64,000 nucleotides of DNA from Colwellia sp. BRX10-3. Its GTDB lineage: Bacteria > Pseudomonadota > Gammaproteobacteria > Enterobacterales > Alteromonadaceae. The position numbers and the translations under genes were made by a program. The stretch is taken from positions 1-64,000 of the forward strand of contig NZ_JACGWA010000008.1 of the NCBI RefSeq assembly GCF_014077505.1. Direction: 5' to 3'. Below, in pieces: positions 2,061 to 38,107 of this stretch; position 1 is the stretch's first letter; each line of letters starts with the position of its first letter. Below the pieces are notes generated by a model. That model was not told the DNA's origin, did not search any database, and saw nothing but the letters and a program-made list of their open reading frames with translations.

Positions 2061-5000
2061 ATGCTAAAACAATCAGTTTGTGCCTTTTTAAGTTTAGTTT
2101 TTATTTTATTAATTGGCATTACGCAAGGTGGGTTAATACCCAAGGTTGCAGCCCAAGAATCAAATCTTGCCAATGACATTGAAACCACCATTGAACGTGT
2201 ACAGCAAACAACTGATTTAGATGAAAAGCAACGAAAAGATACGCTGATCAAGCTCGAAGATGCGCAAGATATGCTGGCGACTGCGAAAGAGCAGCAACGT
2301 CTGACTATTGATTATGAAGACCGAGCGGCGAGTGCATCCCAAAACGTTATTGCTATTCGACAAAGTAACCAAGCGCTGCGAGAGCAGGTAGTGCAAATAG
2401 ATAAAAGCCAATCGGCTGATAAGCTCAAAAATCAACTGCTTTTGCAAAGAGCTGAACAAAAAAATCGCCTTTCGGTGCTTTCAGAAAAACAAAGCGAACA
2501 AACTGTACTGAGTTTACGAGCTAATAAAATTGCTGAGCAATTAAGTGCAACCCGGGCTGACGAAACTGCGATTAATCAAGCAATAGCCAAGCAAAATCCT
2601 GACAATATTAACCTTGAGGCAAGAGCTGACCATCTTGAAAAACTGGCCAACGCGCATAAACTTGCCGCCACAATTGAAGCACTTGAAAGCGAGATAGCGA
2701 CTATTCCAGCTCGCAAGTCGCTGGTTGAGGCAGAATTAAGCCAACTGCGCACTCAAAGCTCATTTTATGAAAAACAAATCGCTTTACTGCAATCTTACTT
2801 AGCTGATAATCGAAAAAGCGAAGTAAAAAAGACAGTTGAACGTAGTAGCGCAGTGCTAGCCAAGTTAAAGCAACAACCAGCTCTTGAGGCAATGGCAAGT
2901 GAGAATTTATTACTGGCTAATCAGCTGCAAGATTTGCAAACCCTCGCGCCAGAGAGTGAAACAAACGTGGCAACGTTGCAAAAGCAACTCGTTGAGGTTC
3001 AACAATCGTCAGAAACGGTTGATAGAGTGTTAGCAACGGGTCGTGTAACCGATGAACTCGGTGAGCTATTGCGCAGACTTCGAGCCAGTTTGCCAGTAGA
3101 GTCGGTGCTTGAACAACGCAATGAAAAGCTTGAAGAGTCGACTATTAGACAACAGCTTGATGTTATTTTGTGGCAAGATCGGCTACGCAGCTTAGCCCAT
3201 ATTCCTGATGCAGCCGAACGTTTACTGATTGAGAACAGCCCTGCGTTGAGTAAAAAAACCAAACAGAGTAAAAGCCCTGAACTTAGTGAAAATGCCAAGA
3301 CAAATTTATTCACCGCGCTTGAGCTTAAAAAGGCAGAAGAACTGACAAGGTCTCGTCGAGATCTAATACGTAACTTAATTGACGCATCTAATATGCAAGC
3401 TGATCGTACTACGGATGAAAAACTGGCGCTCAGCGAGCTTCTTATGGCAAGCTCTGCGCTAAGCGCGCTACTGGAAAGACGATTAATTTGGCTACCGTCT
3501 TCCAGCTCAGGTATTGCCGGCAACTTTGGCTTAAATTTGTTAATCAGCGTTGAGTGGTTCTTTTCACCCACTGCGTGGTGGAGCTTAGTTAACGACCTCT
3601 ATAACGGTGCTATATCTTCGCCTTTTCTATTGTTATTGTTTATCACTATACCGTTACTGATTTTGGCTAGCCGACGCGCGATTAAACGCACTTTGTGGAC
3701 CTTATTTGAAAAGGTGGGTGACGTTGAACATGACACTTATTTTAGTACGCCTTTAGCGTTACTTTTAACTTTCGCGCTAGCTTTACCCTTACCCGTTTGC
3801 TTATTCGCTGTCGCCGGCATGATCTCAGAAGGTGCTCAGCCAATGAGCTTTTCTATCGCTATAGCGACAGGGCTAGCGGCTGTTTCATCGTTAAGCCTAA
3901 TACTCTTGTTTTTTCGCTCTATGTGTCGTGAAAATGGCATGTTTGAAAAACACTTTGGTTGGAGCGCCAATGCACGACTCAAATTACGCGCTATGCTTTC
4001 ATGGTTTGTCTGGTTAGAGTCAGTTACTGGCTTTGTATTTGCTACCGCAATTGCCAGTGGCGAAACTGAGCTGAGATACGGCATCGCAATTTTAGCGTTT
4101 ATTATTAGCTCTGTCGGTATTGCGGTATTTAGTTATCAATTTTTTCAGCCTAAGAGTGGCGTGGCCACCAGCATCGCAGGCGACACTCCGGCAAACATAC
4201 TAACAATTATTGCCTTTCCCATTGCAGTGTTAGCACCTTTTGCCATCGGCTTAATGCCACTGATTGGCTATTTTGATACTGCGGTTGAGCTGCAATCTAA
4301 GGTCTTTATGTCAGGTACCTTACTGGTAATGTCGGCGGTTATATATGGCATTATGTTACGGGTTTTTCTAGTGACATTTCGCCGTTACATGGTCCGTAAG
4401 GAGCAAAAAGAAGCTGAAGATTTAGCGATAAAAAATGCCGAGCCAAAGGTGGAATCAAGTGGTGATGCAATCGCTACACCTGAAGAAAGTAAAAGCATTG
4501 ATGAAGAAGAAGTGAAGCGCCAAAGTCAATCTATTATGCGCTGGTTCACAGGCCTTTTATTGTTAGCTGGGCTTTGGTTTATCTGGATGCCACTGCTACC
4601 AGCACTTGGAATTGTTGATGACATTATCGTGTGGCAACAGGTAAAAATAGTAGACGGTGTAGAGCTTTCAAGTGGCGTTACCTTGTGGAATATTATTTTG
4701 TCATTAGCGTTTGTTGTTGGTGGCATTTTAGCAGCAAAAAATATACGCGGTGTCATGGAAATTGGTTTCTTTGAGCGATTTGAAATGGACGATGGTGCTC
4801 GCTATGCCATTATGTCTATATTGGGCTATGTCATTGTAGGCAGCGGTATAGTTATAGGCTTCTCGCAGCTTGGAATCGATTGGTCAAAGTTACAGTGGAT
4901 TATAGCCGCGCTTGGTGTTGGCCTAGGTTTTGGCTTGCAAGAGATTGTTGCCAACTTTGTTTCTGGTTTAATCATATTATTTGAACGGCCCATCCGTGTG

Positions 5001-18063: not shown

Positions 18064-18161
18064 ATTTTGGCTATTTTTGTGACTAAATATAATGAATAGC
18101 TAGAGAGAATTTGCCGATTATGGCATGCTTAGCCCATCTTTCTCCCAGTTATAAAATTATC

Positions 18162-20906
18162 ATGCCAACTTCTGACCAATCACCGCTTATTTTAGTCGAT
18201 GGTTCATCTTATTTATTCCGCGCATATCACGTGCCATATTTACAAGCTTTATCAACTTCTGATGGTCAACCTACAGGGGCTATTACTGGCGTCTTGAACA
18301 TGATCAGAAGCTTGAAAAAAGACTATCCCAACGGCAATATTATCGCGATATTTGATGCCAAAGGAAAAACCTTCCGTAATGACATGTATGCTGAATATAA
18401 AGCTAATCGACCGCCAATGCCGGATGATTTACGCACGCAAATAGCGCCAATACATGACATTATTACAGCCATGGGCTTACCGCTTTTAGTTATTGATGGT
18501 GTTGAGGCGGACGATGTTATTGGCACGTTATCGCATCAAGCAACGGCGTTGGGTATTGAGACTGTGATCTCTACCGGTGATAAAGATATGGCGCAGTTAG
18601 TTAACTCGCATGTGCGTTTAATCAATACCATGACTAATGTTGAAATGGATGAAGCAGGCGTTATTGAAAAATTTGGTGTTCGCCCTGATCAGATCATCGA
18701 TTATCTAGCCTTAATGGGCGATAAAGTTGACAACATTCCAGGTGTTGATAAATGTGGCCCTAAAACCGCCGTAAAATGGTTAACCGCATATCCAACCTTG
18801 AAAGAAGTGATGGAGCACGCTGATGAAGTTAAAGGCAAAGTCGGTGAGAACCTACGTACTGCTTTAGCCCACTTACCACTTTCTTATGAACTAGCGACTA
18901 TAAAGCTTGATGTTGCACTTGAGCAAAACGCTGCCGAATTAAAACCAAGCGCACCTGATACAGCAACATTAAGAACCTTGTATCAAAAATACGAACTTAA
19001 GCGTTTATTAGCTGATTTAGATGCAGGTGACAGTAAAGCTGAGACTTCCGTTACCCCGAGCAATGATGAAGTTGCAGACTTGCCGGCTGCTGTTGAGAGT
19101 GAATATGACATTATTCTGGATAAAGCCAGCTTCAATGTTTGGCTTGAAAAATTAAAAACTGCTGAACTTTTTGCTTTTGATACTGAAACCACCAGTGTTG
19201 ATTATATGAAAGCTAAGCTAGTAGGATTGTCATTCTGTGTTGAAGTAGGTAAAGCAGCGTATGTACCATTAACACATGATTATATTGATGCTCCAGAGCA
19301 ATTAGAACTTGATTGGGTGCTTGAGCAACTTAAACCCTTATTAGAAAGTGAGACTTTGTTTAAAGTTGGGCAAAATTTAAAATACGATGCCAATGTGTTA
19401 TCGCATTATGACATTGCTATGCAGGGCATTGCTTTTGATACCATGCTTGAGTCTTACTGTTTAAATAGTGTTGCTACTCGCCATAATATGGATGCGCTCG
19501 CAGATAAGTATTTAGGCTATCAAACAGTACATTTTGAAGATATAGCAGGCAAGGGCGCTAAACAGCTAACTTTTAATCAAATTGAGATTGAAAAAGCCGG
19601 CCATTATGCCGCTGAAGATGCTGATGTTACCATGCGCTTGCATGAAGCCATTTATCCACAATTAGCAAAAATAAGTTCGCAGCTCTCGGTTTTTACTGAT
19701 ATTGAAATGCCTTTATTACCCGTACTGGCTCGTATGGAGCAGCATGGCGTGTTAATTGATTGCGATTTGCTGGCTGAACAAAGTCAGTCAATTGGTACTC
19801 GTTTGGCTGAGTTAGAAATTGAAGCACATAATTTAGCAGGTAAAAGCTTTAACTTGAGCTCACCTAAGCAGTTACAAGTCATTTTGTTTGAAGAGTTAAA
19901 AATTCCTGTTATTAAGAAAACACCTAAAGGTGCGCCTTCAACTGCTGAAGAAGTACTGCAAGAATTAGCCTTAGATTATCCATTACCGAAAGTTATACTA
20001 GAAAACAGAGGTTTAAGTAAATTAAAGTCTACTTATACTGATAAGTTACCGTTATTGGTTGGCCCAAAAACTAATCGAGTTCATACTTCTTATCACCAAG
20101 CGGTGACTGCTACAGGACGATTATCTTCGACCGATCCAAACCTACAAAATATTCCAATTCGTAGTGAAGAAGGACGTAAAATACGTCTAGCTTTTATTGC
20201 TCCGCCTGAACATAAAATTGTCGCGATAGATTATTCTCAAATTGAATTACGCATTATGGCGCATTTATCTGATGACCCAGGCTTAGTTAAAGCCTTTTCT
20301 GAAGGTAAAGATGTGCATAAAGCGACAGCAGCTGAGATATTTGCTGTACCGCTAGACGAAGTAACTAGCGACCAACGCCGAAGCGCGAAAGCGGTTAACT
20401 TTGGTTTAATTTATGGCATGTCAGCATTTGGTTTAGCAAAACAGCTCAACGTTCCTCGCCATACGGCACAAGCTTACATGGATAAATACTTTGAGCGTTA
20501 TCCTAATGTTTCTCAATACATGGAAGATACACGTCAGCAAGCAACAGAGAAAGGTTATGTAGAAACCTTATTTGGCCGTCGACTTTATTTACCTGATATT
20601 AACGCAAAAAATGGTATGCGTAAAAAAGCTGCTGAACGTGCTGCTATTAATGCGCCAATGCAGGGGACTGCTGCTGATATTATTAAAAAGGCCATGCTGG
20701 CTGTGGACAATTGGATACAAGCGCAGAATGATCCTAGAATCAAAATGACCATGCAAGTGCACGATGAATTAATTTTTGAAATTCACCAAGATATTGTTGA
20801 AGCAACAACGGCAACCTTGGTAGAGATAATGAATAATGCTATTACCATGAGCGTGCCGTTAATTGCCGAAGCAGGTATGGGTGATAACTGGGAGCAAGCT
20901 CACTAA
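18162..20906 (+). CDS. polA: DNA polymerase I
   Basis: Repair and Okazaki-fragment polymerase with three domains. The 5'-3' nuclease is N-terminal (DGSSYLFRAYH near the start, GDKDMAQLV). The 3'-5' exonuclease follows, with its catalytic FDTETTS intact. The polymerase domain has motif A DYSQIELRIMAHLS, the O-helix region RRSAKAVNFGLIYGMSAFG and motif C MQVHDELIFE. An open frame extends upstream to a TTG at 18111. The ATG at 18162 (MPTSDQSPLILVDG) gives 914 residues and aligns best with the E. coli start (MVQIPQNPLILVDG, 928 residues). The TTG at 18111 has a better AGAGAG site, so some doubt remains. A strong terminator follows. Confidence 0.95.
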   Translation: MPTSDQSPLILVDGSSYLFRAYHVPYLQALSTSDGQPTGAITGVLNMIRSLKKDYPNGNIIAIFDAKGKTFRNDMYAEYKANRPPMPDDLRTQIAPIHDIITAMGLPLLVIDGVEADDVIGTLSHQATALGIETVISTGDKDMAQLVNSHVRLINTMTNVEMDEAGVIEKFGVRPDQIIDYLALMGDKVDNIPGVDKCGPKTAVKWLTAYPTLKEVMEHADEVKGKVGENLRTALAHLPLSYELATIKLDVALEQNAAELKPSAPDTATLRTLYQKYELKRLLADLDAGDSKAETSVTPSNDEVADLPAAVESEYDIILDKASFNVWLEKLKTAELFAFDTETTSVDYMKAKLVGLSFCVEVGKAAYVPLTHDYIDAPEQLELDWVLEQLKPLLESETLFKVGQNLKYDANVLSHYDIAMQGIAFDTMLESYCLNSVATRHNMDALADKYLGYQTVHFEDIAGKGAKQLTFNQIEIEKAGHYAAEDADVTMRLHEAIYPQLAKISSQLSVFTDIEMPLLPVLARMEQHGVLIDCDLLAEQSQSIGTRLAELEIEAHNLAGKSFNLSSPKQLQVILFEELKIPVIKKTPKGAPSTAEEVLQELALDYPLPKVILENRGLSKLKSTYTDKLPLLVGPKTNRVHTSYHQAVTATGRLSSTDPNLQNIPIRSEEGRKIRLAFIAPPEHKIVAIDYSQIELRIMAHLSDDPGLVKAFSEGKDVHKATAAEIFAVPLDEVTSDQRRSAKAVNFGLIYGMSAFGLAKQLNVPRHTAQAYMDKYFERYPNVSQYMEDTRQQATEKGYVETLFGRRLYLPDINAKNGMRKKAAERAAINAPMQGTAADIIKKAMLAVDNWIQAQNDPRIKMTMQVHDELIFEIHQDIVEATTATLVEIMNNAITMSVPLIAEAGMGDNWEQAH

Positions 20907-21029
20907 ATATTGATAACAAACTTGAACATTCTATATTACTGTTGACTAAGTTTGTTTGAAATTAATTCAACCGCTTTACGTTCTTATTAAATAACGCCGA
21001 ATGATCCCTTCATGGTGTGTTGTTTATTT

Positions 21030-21055
21030 GGCCTCTATACAGAGGCCATTTTTTT
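21030..21055 (+). terminator. Intrinsic terminator of polA
   Basis: Stem GGCCTCT (21030-21036) / AGAGGCC (21041-21047) with a 4-nt loop, followed by ATTTTTTT. It separates polA from the small-RNA gene. Confidence 0.85.
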
Positions 21056-21173
21056 GGCAGCTGGTAAATGACTAACTTTCACCAACGCTGATAATTGTTA
21101 AGTGCCATAGCATAAATGCAAATGATTATTTGTGATAAAAAACCAAAATATGTAAAAAAGCTACATAATACGC

Positions 21174-21203
21174 TTTACATGCTTAGAGTTATTACTCTAT
21201 AAT
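21174..21203 (+). promoter_or_regulatory. Sigma-70 promoter with internal dyad, small RNA 1
   Basis: -35 TTTACA (21174-21179), 18-bp spacer, -10 TATAAT (21198-21203). The spacer holds the perfect dyad TAGAG-TTATTA-CTCTA (21184-21199), which runs into the first two bases of the -10. The same layout occurs at the second small-RNA promoter (35188-35217, minus strand), so the dyad is probably a shared operator. Confidence 0.8.
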
Positions 21204-21209
21204 TGCTTT

Positions 21210-21300
21210 ATCCCCAAATTGAACACCTGTTGTGATATTTGTATTTTAAGCTTCCTCTCTAGCTTTTGAGCTAACAACCAAGTTGTTGGCTCTTTTTTTT
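21210..21300 (+). ncRNA. Candidate small RNA 1, downstream of polA
   Basis: About 91 nt, bounded by a near-consensus promoter and an intrinsic terminator, with no open frame. In order: a short 5' end; the 13-nt core GAACACCTGTTGT (21221-21233); an AT-rich linker; a hairpin AAGCT/AGCTT with loop UCCUCUCU (21248-21265); and a terminator stem (21268-21278 / 21282-21292) ending in eight T. The core, the AAGCTT hairpin and the promoter are repeated in the small RNA at 35 kb. The pyrimidine-rich loop could pair with Shine-Dalgarno sequences (inference). Spot 42 lies next to polA in other gammaproteobacteria, but the Spot 42 5' end GUAGGGUACAGAGG is not present. Family unknown to me. Confidence 0.75.
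21268..21300 (+). terminator. Intrinsic terminator of small RNA 1
   Basis: 11-bp stem GAGCTAACAAC / GTTGTTGGCTC with one G-U pair and a 3-nt loop, then eight T. Confidence 0.85.
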
Positions 21301-21423
21301 GCCTTAAATATAATGTTTGGAAATTCCACACTCAACTATGCTTGGATATTTAAAATACATATTTGTAATTAAATTACTCGAAAAATGAATTTTGACGTTT
21401 TAGCAAGTTAGCAATGGTATTAC

Positions 21424-22884
21424 TTACTTATTTTTATGTGAAAGCATTGTTAAGCATAAATTTAACTGTTCGACTAATGCAGCGCAGTGATCAAAATCGC
21501 TAAGAGAAATTTCTTTATTGGAGAGAAAAACTTGCGCGGTAATCGCTCCAATCGGTGTTTGCCCAACTTTTACAGGGCAAATTAATACCGAACCCTCCGC
21601 GATAAACTCAGCTATTTCACCGGTAATATATTGATACCATTGTTTTTCCTGACGATCTTTTATCAATATCGCTTGCTCATTATCCATGGCGTAACTGAAG
21701 ACGTTATTACTATGTGAAAGAGAAAATTTAATCTGTTTTTCAACAATCTCACTGGCTATGTCGAAAGTAAAACGTGACTTAATAGCGGCTTTATCTTCAA
21801 TCATTAAAAAGAAACTGCAGTGTTCAAAAGCGAAAATTTTTGCCATAGACTTAAGCGTTAACTGGATGAACGATGTTAAGTCTGTTGATGATTTAAGTAA
21901 CTTGTTGAGTTGCATATAAGTACTGATAATGTCGCTATATTTGTGCGGATTAGGTTTTAAAACTTGATACTTGTTACCTTTGAAGTCGCTGGCATTTGGT
22001 AGCGGTTTTATATGTTTAATTAATGCTGATGCGCCATAGGAGGTTAACAACTTATTGGCATTTTCTCGAAGAGACTCAATTTTTAGCGTTAATTGCCGCT
22101 CGTTTAAACCGGTTAATTTTGCGATATCAGCTAACAGTTGATGAAACTCTTCTACACTACCCGTAGGGTTTGCTATGGTATTACTTAACTTGTCGGCAAA
22201 ATAAATTATTTGAATTTCAATGGTTCTACTTTTCGGTTTATCGAGTGCCTTTAACAGTAAGTCACTTAAGCTCCAAGTTTTGACCAGTTCAGTACTGAGT
22301 TGTGCAAAGTCACCGCCTATTTCGCTGAAACATTTTTGTCGAAAACTTTCACTTGTCATATCACCATGTGCAATTAAATTATCTGCTGACTCACCACCTA
22401 CACACCAAAAAGCAGTTTCCCCAATACGATAAAGCATTGCGGCTAAATAAAGCTCTTCCTGTGTGTCATCAGCATATTGCGGGGCCATCATTTTAGCTAA
22501 CAATCCGGCATAAAATGAACTGGCCATTGATTGTGTTAATTGATGGTGAACATCGGGATTGAGTTCTTTATTATCTAATAAACCTTCAACTAACTTGGAG
22601 GTAAGACAAATATTTTTAACCGCTCTAATACCTAACACTACTGACGCGCGAGAAACGGTGTTTACCTTATTAATACTTAAATGTTGCACACTATTAGCAA
22701 CTTTGAGTAAGCAAGATGCAAGTGCCTGATCGTGTAAAATGGCCTTACTTAATTTAGGTAAAGACGATTTATCATCATTATTAAATTTATCCAACATCCT
22801 GGCTGTTGAAGTGATGGCGGGTAATTCACTTTTTGCGATGATATCAACCCAATGTTGAATTGAGATCTGCGGTGCGTCTTTCAT
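21424..22884 (-). CDS. HDOD-GAF signalling protein
   Basis: Cytoplasmic protein with an HDOD domain (about residues 10-260, a degenerate HD-type output domain found in signalling proteins) and a C-terminal GAF-like sensor (about 325-480). HDOD-type features are SKAILHDQALASCLLKVANS and VSRASVVLGIRAVKNICLT. The role is unknown; relatives act in stress, motility or nutrient signalling. The frame is open to a GTG at 22944, but a TATAAT at 22906-22911 (minus strand) sits between that GTG and the ATG at 22884, and GGAGCAAAGAG precedes the ATG. I therefore use MKDAPQ (486 residues). Divergent from the M16 protease gene. Confidence 0.88.
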   Translation of the reverse strand: MKDAPQISIQHWVDIIAKSELPAITSTARMLDKFNNDDKSSLPKLSKAILHDQALASCLLKVANSVQHLSINKVNTVSRASVVLGIRAVKNICLTSKLVEGLLDNKELNPDVHHQLTQSMASSFYAGLLAKMMAPQYADDTQEELYLAAMLYRIGETAFWCVGGESADNLIAHGDMTSESFRQKCFSEIGGDFAQLSTELVKTWSLSDLLLKALDKPKSRTIEIQIIYFADKLSNTIANPTGSVEEFHQLLADIAKLTGLNERQLTLKIESLRENANKLLTSYGASALIKHIKPLPNASDFKGNKYQVLKPNPHKYSDIISTYMQLNKLLKSSTDLTSFIQLTLKSMAKIFAFEHCSFFLMIEDKAAIKSRFTFDIASEIVEKQIKFSLSHSNNVFSYAMDNEQAILIKDRQEKQWYQYITGEIAEFIAEGSVLICPVKVGQTPIGAITAQVFLSNKEISLSDFDHCAALVEQLNLCLTMLSHKNK

Positions 22885-31974: not shown

Positions 31975-31980
31975 TATAAT
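31975..31980 (+). promoter_or_regulatory. -10 element of engB
   Basis: Perfect TATAAT that overlaps the first in-frame ATG (31979). A TTGCAT at 31950-31955 could be the -35 with a 19-bp spacer. Transcription would begin near 31987, downstream of that ATG. Confidence 0.6.
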
Positions 31981-32011
31981 GCGTTTTTTATTTATATTGT
32001 TGGATCTAAAC

Positions 32012-32668
32012 TTGTCATCTACAGCCATTCATCTTAGCAAAGCGACCTTTACTCTTAGCGCACCCGATATCCGTCGTTTACCCGCAGATAGTGGCATTGA
32101 AGTGGCATTTGCAGGTCGTTCTAACGCAGGTAAATCAAGTGCGTTAAACACATTAACAAATCAAAGAAGCCTTGCGCGTACCAGTAAAACACCAGGACGT
32201 ACTCAGCTAATTAATATTTTTGAAATAGCCGAAAACAAACGTTTAGTTGATTTACCCGGTTATGGCTTTGCCAAAGTGCCGATGGAAATGAAGAAAAAGT
32301 GGCAAAAAGCTTTGGGCGAATACCTAGAAAAGCGCGAATGCTTGAAAGGTTTAGTTATTTTAATGGATATAAGACATCCGTTAAAAGATCTAGATATGGA
32401 CCTTATTCAATGGGCCGCAGACGGTGATTTACCTGTTTTAGCGTTGCTAACAAAAAGTGATAAACTTTCTCAAGGTAAAGTTAGCGCACAAGTACATTTT
32501 GTCAAAAAAGAACTAGCGGCACTAAATGCTGATATTAAAGTGCAGGCGTTTTCGTCATTAAAACGCACAGGCTCAGAGCAAGCTGACAAAGTAATTTGCG
32601 ATTGGTTTCAAGATGAGAATATTCAAGCGTTAAGTGAATCAAGCGAAGAACCTTTAATCGAAGAGTAA
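32012..32668 (+). CDS. engB: Ribosome biogenesis GTP-binding protein EngB (YsxC/YihA)
   Basis: Essential GTPase in large-subunit ribosome assembly. G1 motif GRSNAGKSS (35-43), G2/switch region [13 protein letters not shown]3 [12 protein letters not shown]4 TKSDK and G5 FSSLK. It closely follows E. coli YihA. An ATG at 31979 is in frame, but it overlaps the -10 hexamer, so an mRNA from that promoter cannot carry it. The TTG at 32012 ([10 protein letters not shown]) has GGAT upstream and gives 218 residues, close to E. coli (210). polA and engB are neighbours in many gammaproteobacteria; here about 11 kb separates them. Confidence 0.95.
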
Positions 32669-34432: not shown

Positions 34433-34538
34433 ACTAGTGTAAACCTGCTATATTTAATAGGCGATAATCGCAAACTTGAGTTTACTTAGAGGTGTGTTGT
34501 TTCGTAGGCCTTGTCGAAATAATAACAAGGAACATAAA

Positions 34539-35001
34539 ATGAACTTCAAATTTACCATCGCATTAATAGCCACTATTGCCGCTTTTAGCACACAGGCCCA
34601 AAGTTGGGACAAACAGCAAACACAAGTATGGGAAATAGTGTTAGCTTCATATGACGATATTAAAAAACGTGACAACAATTGGACGGATAAATGGGTAACC
34701 CAAGACGCTATGGTTTGGGGGGAATAGCACCCCAATGCCTCGCAGTAGAAGTGCTGTAAAACGCTGGGAAAAATTCAGCTTTGAAGATGGCTCAACGAAT
34801 AACGTTGCCGAATATAGCCCAACAGCAATTGTTGTTCATGGTGATACCGCCGTTGTTCATTACTATTATTCTAATGGAATGACTTCAAATAAAGGCGAAC
34901 AAAAAACTGTTCATGGCCGGTGTAGTGATGTGTTAGTTAAAGACAATAAAGCGTGGAAATTTGTCGCTTGGCATTGCGCTGATGAATCGAAAAAACATTA
35001 A
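34539..35001 (+). pseudogene. NTF2/SnoaL-like secreted protein gene with a frameshift
   Basis: Two consecutive frames make one gene. The first (34539-34727) encodes a signal peptide (cut near STQAQ) and WDKQQTQVWEIVLASYDDIKK. The second (from about 34729) continues PMPRSRSAVKRWEKF, VVHGDTAVVHYYYS and VHGRCSDVLVKDNKAWKFVAWHC, the pattern of NTF2-like proteins. The break lies in a run of six G (34717-34722). With five G the frame reads through as WGNSTPMPRSR, giving about 154 residues. This is a true one-base insertion, a phase-variable tract or a sequencing error. The ATG at 34539 has AAGGA 7 bases upstream. Terminator at 35019. Confidence 0.8.
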
Positions 35002-35018
35002 TTTATAGAGCAATAAAT

Positions 35019-35052
35019 AAAACCTCAGCTTATCTCGAGTTGAGGTTTTTTA
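35019..35052 (+). terminator. Terminator of the NTF2-like gene
   Basis: AAAACCTCA (35019-35027) / TGAGGTTTT (35041-35049) with a 13-nt loop and a T-run. Confidence 0.75.
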
Positions 35053-35091
35053 ATGCTATTTTTTCGGTAACAGAAGGCAAATTTCAGACAT

Positions 35092-35122
35092 AAAAAAACC
35101 GATGACTAAAGGGGCCATCGGT
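35092..35122 (-). terminator. Intrinsic terminator of small RNA 2
   Basis: On the minus strand the stem ACCGATG / CATCGGT (35116-35122 with 35098-35104) is followed by a run of seven T. Confidence 0.85.
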
Positions 35123-35181
35123 ATAGAAGCTTTGGGGAAGCTTGAATTCAAAATTAATACAACAGGTGTTCTAACGAGAAC
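35092..35181 (-). ncRNA. Candidate small RNA 2, paralogue of the one after polA
   Basis: About 90 nt on the minus strand with its own promoter and terminator and no open frame. It shares with small RNA 1 the core GAACACCTGTTGT (minus strand, 35171-35159), an AT-rich linker of similar length and an AAGCTT hairpin (35127-35143, loop CCCCA). The terminator stem differs completely. The distance from the -10 to the core is 16 nt here and 17 nt in the first. Conservation of promoter, operator-like dyad, core and hairpin, with divergence elsewhere, is what sibling sRNAs that use the same seed would show. It is convergent with the NTF2-like gene and 40 bp from that terminator. Confidence 0.75.
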
Positions 35182-35187
35182 AAAATC

Positions 35188-35217
35188 ATTATAGAGCAAC
35201 AACTCTACAAAAGTAAA
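35188..35217 (-). promoter_or_regulatory. Sigma-70 promoter with internal dyad, small RNA 2
   Basis: On the minus strand: TTTACT (35217-35212), 18-bp spacer, TATAAT (35193-35188). The spacer carries TAGAG-TTGTTG-CTCTA (35192-35207), the same dyad as at small RNA 1. Just upstream (35225-35232 and 35261-35268) is a further inverted repeat CTCTAAAA / TTTTAGAG with the same AGAG/CTCT half-sites. Confidence 0.78.
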
Positions 35218-35285
35218 GCCTTTACTCTAAAATAATTTATTTATCTTTAAAAAAAGTGTTTTTTAGAGTGTGTAAAACGCAGAAA

Positions 35286-35379
35286 ATAATGAGATCTGCG
35301 ACAGAAAATGAGATTTCTGACAGGACATTAGAAATGAGATTGAGGTAATGTGACTGGACATTCAATGAGATTGAGGTAT
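35286..35379. repeat. Degenerate repeat block with four AATGAGAT motifs
   Basis: Four copies of AATGAGAT in about 90 bp, alternating with GACAG / GGACATT motifs. The last two are longest: GGACATT...AATGAGATTGAGGTA occurs twice about 33 bp apart. The pattern resembles the multiple terminal repeats at the ends of some insertion sequences, but no transposase is present and I cannot name an element. From 35380 to 35931 there is only a 9-bp hairpin (CAACCACTA / TAGTGGTTG, 35557-35578). Confidence 0.55.
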
Positions 35380-35931
35380 GGATTTAAAAAAGATACTTCA
35401 GTTTCATACAATGTTTACTTTTAACCTAAAACTGACGTTTATTAGAATTGAGTTCAAACCATTAAATAATCCTACAGAGTCAAAGCGAACTAAAGCAATT
35501 GCATTTAAGTGATTTGAAAATCGGTATGTGAATAAATGGTATCCATTTAGCCCGACCAACCACTATATGTAGTGGTTGATTATATTTAACCTCGTCGTCC
35601 TCTTTTGCCACATTGCTGACCTAAATATAGTACCTACCACTCCCTTTCTATAAAAACATTTCTGAAGTAACACCGGGCATTAATAAAGCTAATTTGATAC
35701 ACAGTATTATGGATAATCAATACAACTATTAGGTTGTAATTGCTTATCTTTGCTATTTGTTAGGTTTCTCTACTAAACTTTATGAGAAGTAGTTTCACAT
35801 ACAGCAATAATGGTTTTACCTTCCTTATAAAAATAAGCTAATTGTATTCATATGATAATGAATCAACATGTTTACAAATGTTTAAGCTCTGAACTAAACT
35901 GTAAGCAATTAACTGTAAAAGGGAAAACGGC

Positions 35932-37667: not shown

Positions 37668-38107
37668 CTATTTTTTGTTAAAAATAAAGTAACACTATTA
37701 GTGCAGTAAATTAGCTTGTAAAATGATAGAGGTTTTATTTTAACTTACTATTCATGGTTTTAGTTTGTATGTTAGGTAAACCCGATAACTAAACCAAATA
37801 GCTATTTTGTAATTATATGGTTTTGAGTAACACCTGTTGGTATACCTCAACACAACACTATTAGCATATATATTTAAACAATAACGGACGTTATATCGTT
37901 CAAAAACTGTCAGGTTTTTTTACAACTTGGCATCTTTCCTGAAACTGTACATTTGAAAATTAGCCAATTTTCATCTGCTTATTAGAGCTGGTATCAATTA
38001 TGCTTTATATAACCAACTATTTTATATTCAGCTGTTAATAATAGAGACGGCAATTTAATTAAGCAGTATAAGTTGCTTAGATAATTCCATTTATCTAAGG
38101 ATTTATA
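37668..38107. other. Intergenic region upstream of the PEP-CTERM gene
   Basis: Contains an 8-bp hairpin TGAAAATT / AATTTTCA (37954-37973). I looked for a sigma-54 promoter, which is common before PEP-CTERM genes, and found only TTGGCAT without the paired TTGC element. No gene seen. Confidence 0.45.

Follow-up and report, generated by a model that had tools for sequence, protein, structure and literature searches.

Sibling small RNA genes at the polA-engB interval of Colwellia: an unnamed family and its relation to the Spot 42 locus

Introduction

The question raised by the stretch of DNA considered here, a window of 64,000 nt from Colwellia sp. BRX10-3 (contig NZ_JACGWA010000008.1, positions 1 to 64,000), is whether a short unit on its minus strand, at 35092-35217, is a small RNA gene, and if so how it comes to have a close likeness in the same window, at about 21 kb. 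A sequence-only reading had taken the two for members of one sRNA family, kept alike by selection on seed and regulation and not by recent copying. It is argued below that the minus-strand unit is a genuine, unnamed sRNA gene (RNA B), and that together with its sibling at 21 kb (RNA A) it belongs to an unnamed family of sibling sRNAs under selection, the reading thus having been right as to both the pair and the selection. The main interest of the pair lies in its relation to the Spot 42 locus and to a control element of that locus, Spot 42 (the product of spf) being a textbook sRNA of central metabolism.

The two units in the window

Two RNA genes of about 90 nt lie at the polA-engB interval, having in common a conserved core promoter with a dyad and a single architecture, made up of a 5' hairpin, an unpaired CYUGUUGU stretch, a hairpin with a C-rich loop and an intrinsic terminator. 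For RNA B, every part described for the minus-strand unit was found to be present when the coordinates were re-read. The RNA is predicted to be about 91 nt long (35092-35182, minus strand, as are all features of this unit), and it is preceded by a -35-like TTTACT (35212-35217, read from the sequence and through a promoter-pattern search) and, after an 18-bp spacer, a -10 TATAAT (35188-35193). A dyad shared with unit A, TAGAGTTGTTGCTCTA (35192-35207), spans the spacer and the -10, and a second, upper dyad, TAGAGTAAAGGCTTTA (35214-35229), overlaps the -35. In the predicted fold, stem-loop 1, the 5' hairpin, occupies 35167-35182, its helix being 96.4% paired among 30 distinct sequences with little covariation; the 13-nt core GAACACCTGTTGT (35159-35171) takes in the 3' arm of this hairpin and the single-stranded CCUGUUGU; stem-loop 2, AAGCTT-CCCCA-AAGCTT (35127-35143), presents the C-rich loop that is the proposed seed; and the terminator stem (35098-35122) is followed by a U-run reaching to 35092. 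A covariance model, R1, matches RNA B with 95.2 bits, RNA B being itself one of the 31 sequences from which the model was built.

Sibling A, on the plus strand 3' of polA, extends over 21209-21300 and is matched by R1 with 73.8 bits. Its promoter, also read from the sequence, has a -35-like TTTACA (21174-21179), an 18-bp spacer and a -10 TATAAT (21198-21203), with the shared dyad, TAGAGTTATTACTCTA, at 21184-21199 (the sole exact TAGAGTNNNNACTCTA in the genome) and, further upstream at 21151-21165, a box TGTAAAAAAGCTACA that has 3 mismatches to TGTAATNNNATTACA. The RNA carries the same 13-mer as B, then a hairpin, AAGCTTCCTCTCTAGCTT, and a terminator stem of its own, unlike that of B just as had been stated. 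Some of the other likenesses claimed for the two units turn out to be partial. The distance from -10 to core is near rather than equal (16 nt in B, 17 nt in A); the AAGCTT hairpin is a full repeat in B but in A is the shorter AAGCT/AGCTT; and although the 13-nt core is present in both units, its first five letters in B are the 3' arm of the 5' hairpin. Folding z-scores for the two RNAs are -3.98 and -4.86, and for each none of 200 shuffled sequences did as well.

Within the 3.87 Mb genome the exact 13-mer occurs in 2 places, namely in B and at 21 kb (reversed control, 0), and the combined promoter pattern has exact matches only at A and B, the 4 other matches needing 3 mismatches. With up to 2 mismatches, 3 occurrences of the 13-mer in the window against 1.36 expected are unremarkable when taken alone, and a two-mismatch copy at 37828 was set aside as being at chance level. 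The check originally suggested, the exact 13-mer followed by AAGCTT, picks out 3 of 60 genomes (this one and two others of the genus), so few because the core varies.

Two minor features of the surroundings may be recorded here. A second box, TGTAATTAAATTACT, lies at 21364-21378, about 60 nt past the end of RNA A and before the 3' end of an HDOD gene, with similar boxes at the same place in several members of the genus. The SnoaL/DUF4440-like gene adjoining B is in pieces in two frames (34476-34727 and 34735-35001, plus strand), and as L203 and L204 have both pieces in a single frame, the copy in the window looks to be frameshifted.

Distribution and conservation of the family

RNA B is present in all 17 genomes of the genus, the present one included, and RNA A in 14 of them. 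Two of the three genomes without A were checked, and they gave neither a match to the HDOD gene nor a credible R1 match (best E 0.3); in these an M16 peptidase gene begins 436 and 393 nt after polA. More widely, at the R1 threshold of E 0.001 (with stricter filters in large genome searches), the family is found in 89 of 295 genomes and in 18 of 52 genera of the GTDB family, most carriers having two copies (70, as against 18 with one copy and 1 with three), and among 394 genomes sampled from the order there are 10 with a match, every one inside the same GTDB family. Records matching in a 20-mer scan are titled Colwellia, Cognaticolwellia, Pseudocolwellia, Thalassotalea and Thalassomonas; R1 confirmed every scan stretch of the family that it was given, 13 of the 60 stretches, including three from Cognaticolwellia, not being given to it, and with some overlap. 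Ten unrelated loci from such scans, two of them viral, have no R1 match.

A and B are thus conserved sibling genes of one family, as had been claimed, both from their presence in 17/17 (B) and 14/17 (A) genomes of the genus and from the two-copy state of the 70 carriers, which is what is looked for in sibling trans-acting sRNAs, i.e. at least two related genes kept over time. Within the RNA, the terminator stem has changes on both sides at 6 of its 9 pairs (7 of 9 in a larger, structure-fitted alignment), and the two other helices show hardly any variation. No Rfam family matches in the window. The nearest candidates were rejected: suhB/mmgR (RF00519) on A only, with 25.2 bits and E 0.0071 against a gathering score of 41 bits, and Hrs13 (E 0.054) and Qrr (E 8) on B, both far under their gathering scores. 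In the literature searched, which covered few subscription papers, no description of this pair was found.

Promoter classes and candidate seeds

When promoters from many genomes are compared (the counts omit L147, L197, L198 and L199), the shared dyad near the RNA start, at an offset of 9-11, is found with at most 2 mismatches in 37/37 B and 31/34 A promoters. The upstream parts differ. A second, upper dyad, 31-32 nt before the RNA, is present in 33/37 B but only 2/34 A promoters (again with at most 2 mismatches), whereas a box of 15 bp, differing from TGTAATNNNATTACA at no more than 3 positions, is present in 32 of 34 A promoters (0.21 in shuffled sequences) and in just 8 of 37 B promoters, the latter being near the shuffled level (0.16). 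Shared regulation, as first proposed, therefore holds for the dyad over the spacer and -10, and not for what lies upstream of it. In other genera, 47 of 52 Spot 42 promoters have the same box (0.12 in shuffled sequences), and its placing is alike in the A and Spot 42 promoters: its end lies mostly 43-44 nt before the RNA (44 nt before spf for the E. coli box, TGAAAAAAAATTACA), and its start lies 22 nt before the -35-like CTT in 26/32 A and 28/47 Spot 42 cases.

The RNAs themselves follow these classes. Mean identity is 0.81 for A-A, 0.80 for B-B and 0.75 for A-B comparisons (omitting L147, L197, L198 and L199), and when the promoter classes, assigned from sequence lying outside the RNAs, are mapped on a tree of 87 RNAs, 6 changes suffice as against 32.0 when shuffled, in a tree that has few columns and many weak forks and in which near-copies favour clustering. 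Since the RNAs group by promoter type, the split between A and B is old, and the earlier judgement that this is not a recent copy stands. Six A-class copies have a B-type promoter (L165, L197 twice, L198 twice and L199), and L177 has two B-type copies 2.4 kb apart; L177, L197 and L198, with a B-type promoter on both copies, fall outside the A/B scheme.

Core and loop also differ by class (these counts, like the tree, omit L147 as well as the genus B copies L010, L011, L014 and L015, which do figure in the promoter counts). The core reads CTTGTTG in 37 of the 39 polA-side copies and CCTGTTG in the other 2, the window's own being one of these, and CCTGTTG in 29 of 33 engB-side copies; the loop is CCCC in 33/33 engB-side copies, as compared with CCTC in 26/39 and CCCC in 10/39 on the polA side. 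It follows that the candidate seeds of the two siblings are slightly unlike in most genomes and that the exact identity of the 13-mer is local to this one, where A, which has a long branch in the RNA tree (0.26), happens to read CCTGTTG. The idea that an identical seed has been kept by selection is not supported, as stated, by this comparison.

The polA-engB interval and Spot 42

Both landmarks of the spf locus, polA (18111-20906, plus strand) and engB, also called yihA (31979-32668, plus strand), are present in the window, and in E. coli spf occupies the same interval. They lie 11 kb apart on the same strand, B being situated past engB and msrBA, and in genomes with a tandem arrangement engB has the other orientation, so that the engB side of the locus in the window appears as if it had been inverted. 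When 27 stretches were searched with the proteins of the window and 63 copies classed by neighbour, 27 copies fell into class A (at most 1.5 kb after polA, same strand) and 21 into class B (a downstream neighbour on the other strand, at most 3 kb away, that is engB or, for genomes of the genus, a SnoaL-like ORF), leaving 15 whose stretches showed neither polA nor engB nearby. In L197 and L198 both copies stand in tandem between polA and engB, and the neighbour rule puts both of them in class A. The presence of two members within 14 kb had been thought unusual, but the spacing is accounted for by an old pair that stood in tandem between polA and engB and has since come apart.

In L197 (9578-9669 and 10189-10280) and L177 (8556-8645 and 10985-11074) the two RNAs of the pair are identical or near-identical and have the same type of promoter, as if these pairs had been homogenised or duplicated again.

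Spot 42 is not detected alongside the pair. The window contains no gathering match to RF00021, and there is none up to E 10 in 20800-21600 or 34900-35500. A covariance search (E 0.001, stricter filters) found Spot 42 in 0 of 17 genomes of the genus and in 15 of the 43 non-genus genomes covered by the same search, and in the order-wide sample, under stricter filters too, it was detected in 164 of 394 genomes, none of the ten R1 carriers being among the matching rows. A ten-letter motif from the 5' end of Spot 42 is found after polA in 22 of 29 stretches from R1-negative genomes; it is missing from 57 of 59 carrier stretches, many of which stop short of polA, and of the two carrier hits one has a terminator behind it and the other has none. 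L181, a genome with both siblings, has TAGGGTACAG at position 3207 on the reverse strand, followed by a terminator-like hairpin; this is a possible remnant of Spot 42, or a matter of chance.

Candidate regulators

The box of the A promoters fits the motif printed for HexR of Vibrio parahaemolyticus, among whose putative sites TGAAAAAAAATTACA is listed (PMC11906056). A HexR regulon as such gained no support, a strict genome search giving only two other boxes, both perfect, one inside an ORF and one between ORFs. Reading by eye, we take the first ORF to be dusB and those flanking the second box to be folE2 and gltB. CRP was likewise rejected for the A box, a CRP consensus having 4.24 mismatches against 3.96 in shuffled sequences, i.e. 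not fewer, and for spf itself this consensus gave 3.92 in both, although E. coli spf is reported to be repressed by CRP (PMC3295665, PMC8672173). Nor did a regulon of the dyad emerge, TAGAGTNNNNACTCTA with at most 1 mismatch occurring at 6 places including A and B, as against 3 for the reversed control; of the four other sites two are inside ORFs and two between them, and no regulator gene was recognised. Because of the locus and of the A box, carbon metabolism is the likely field in which the pair acts.

Origin and mode of action of the pair

Some indication of where the pair came from is given by relatives that retain Spot 42. Among the loci inspected, of which L226 has no sequence after polA, there are four genomes (L061/L229, L064/L209, L205 and L224) in which Spot 42 is followed by a second element that carries AGCTTCTCCCC before a terminator, and in L208 an element of the same type comes after polA without Spot 42 (R1 E 0.48). 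Although built without these four elements, R1 ranks them first among 38 matches in 34 kb, with E values of 3.3e-5, 0.0016, 0.007 and 0.01; the next matches, L060 (0.017, downstream of Spot 42) and E. coli (0.024), come close behind the last two, so that homology is well supported in one relative and likely in a second. A second RNA beside Spot 42 is thus the likely ancestor of the pair.

The explanation that we favour, and which we consider somewhat better than evenly probable when taken whole, combines an old sibling pair with a history at the Spot 42 locus and a mechanism. An ancestor of the Colwellia-like bacteria would have duplicated the second RNA, copy A settling directly behind polA with its upstream box placed as in the Spot 42 promoter, and Spot 42 itself would have been lost or have changed beyond recognition. 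As to mechanism, the C-rich loop and the CYUGUUGU stretch would keep mRNAs from being translated by pairing with their Shine-Dalgarno regions, probably with the help of Hfq; A would answer a carbon signal through its box (by way of a HexR-like regulator or, as for spf in E. coli, of CRP), B would answer some factor that binds the dyads, and the one-base differences between A and B could give them partly different targets. A more specific version, to which we would give slightly less than an even chance, is that of a swap in place, in which Spot 42 has gone, a copy of the neighbouring sRNA has taken over its position and control element, and the original persists under separate control. If that is true, the signal that elsewhere drives Spot 42 has been passed to another RNA, with another seed, and a clade without detectable Spot 42 but with a duplicated neighbour in its place would offer a clear example from nature of rewired regulation in sRNA evolution. 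The pair would also be a first candidate for a carbon-related sRNA pair in marine Colwellia-like bacteria.

The history could also be simpler, B having been plainly duplicated, the box of A deriving from the ancestral B promoter or having arisen independently, and Spot 42 having been lost as a separate event. In favour of this, a stretch resembling TGTAAT lies farther upstream of the B relatives beside Spot 42 (L061, L064), and half a box precedes the dyad in the tandem copies of L197 and L198; but the spacing of the box is equal in A and Spot 42 promoters, both to the RNA and mostly to the CTT, and among B promoters the box hardly exceeds the shuffled level, making this account unlikely, if still one to be taken seriously. 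A more radical doubt is whether A and B are independent sRNAs at all, as both were predicted from sequence and A lies behind polA on its strand; they might derive from neighbouring genes, as leaders or as processed 3' ends, or be some other DNA or RNA element. Each copy, on the other hand, has its own conserved promoter and terminator, which are kept while the neighbours change between genera, and B is tail to tail with the next gene and so can be neither its leader nor its 3' end. In RNA B no ATG, GTG or TTG frame of at least 10 codons was found to close inside the RNA, RNA A having one TTG frame of 16 codons, and we regard such an origin as very improbable.

A different role for genuine sRNAs would be that of a protein sponge or other protein ligand, in place of pairing with mRNA. 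Loop and stretch are indeed rich in C and U, yet RNAs that bind CsrA carry GGA motifs, unlike the conserved CCCC or CCTC of the loop, and the layout is one known from siblings that base-pair through anti-Shine-Dalgarno loops, so that protein binding as the main role appears improbable, and pairing with mRNA remains our preferred reading.

Comparison with described RNAs

The layout just referred to is that of NmsRA and NmsRB of Neisseria, siblings with three stem-loops, which pair with Shine-Dalgarno regions through UC-rich stretches in the SL2 loop and in the segment joining SL1 to SL2 (PMC5362039). By analogy with these RNAs of a different bacterial group, which A and B resemble in layout, both probably act by anti-Shine-Dalgarno pairing. 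VcdRP of Vibrio cholerae offers a second parallel, in that four consecutive cytosines form the seed of VcdR against several carbon-uptake mRNAs and the gene is under carbon control by CRP; as a homologue it was rejected, as it lies at another locus (vc2278-vc2279) and is of quite unlike size, 306 nt, and it encodes a 29-aa protein where RNA B has no such frame (PMC8672173). With Spot 42 (spf, RF00021) the likeness is in place and control: A comes directly after polA in the window and, by the definition of the class, in most A copies, and it has an upstream box of the same kind at the same distance, which B mostly has not, but in sequence the A and B RNAs showed no relation to Spot 42 in these tests (no RF00021 match).

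Among described RNAs the one closest in position is VSsrna24 of Aliivibrio salmonicida, a separate RNA 262 nt downstream of spf that is affected by glucose, about 60 nt long and described as limited to the Vibrionaceae (PMC3295665); the likeness noted here is in location. Like VSsrna24, the present family consists of small RNAs of the polA-engB interval, with tandem order in L197 and L198, but A and B are about 90 nt long and Spot 42 is undetected, whereas VSsrna24 has Spot 42 alongside it, and in the window B is displaced past engB. The family suggests that the second RNA of the spf locus, which has been little studied, reaches past the Vibrionaceae, the limit given for VSsrna24 (PMC3295665). 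In the two Vibrio-like loci searched with R1, no match was convincing. In the spf-engB interval of many loci that we guess to be Vibrio-like (L236-L244, L246, L253, L255, L262 and similar) there is a short C-rich stretch, e.g. TTTCTCTCCCGTTGCCCC, together with a terminator, and this may possibly be VSsrna24.
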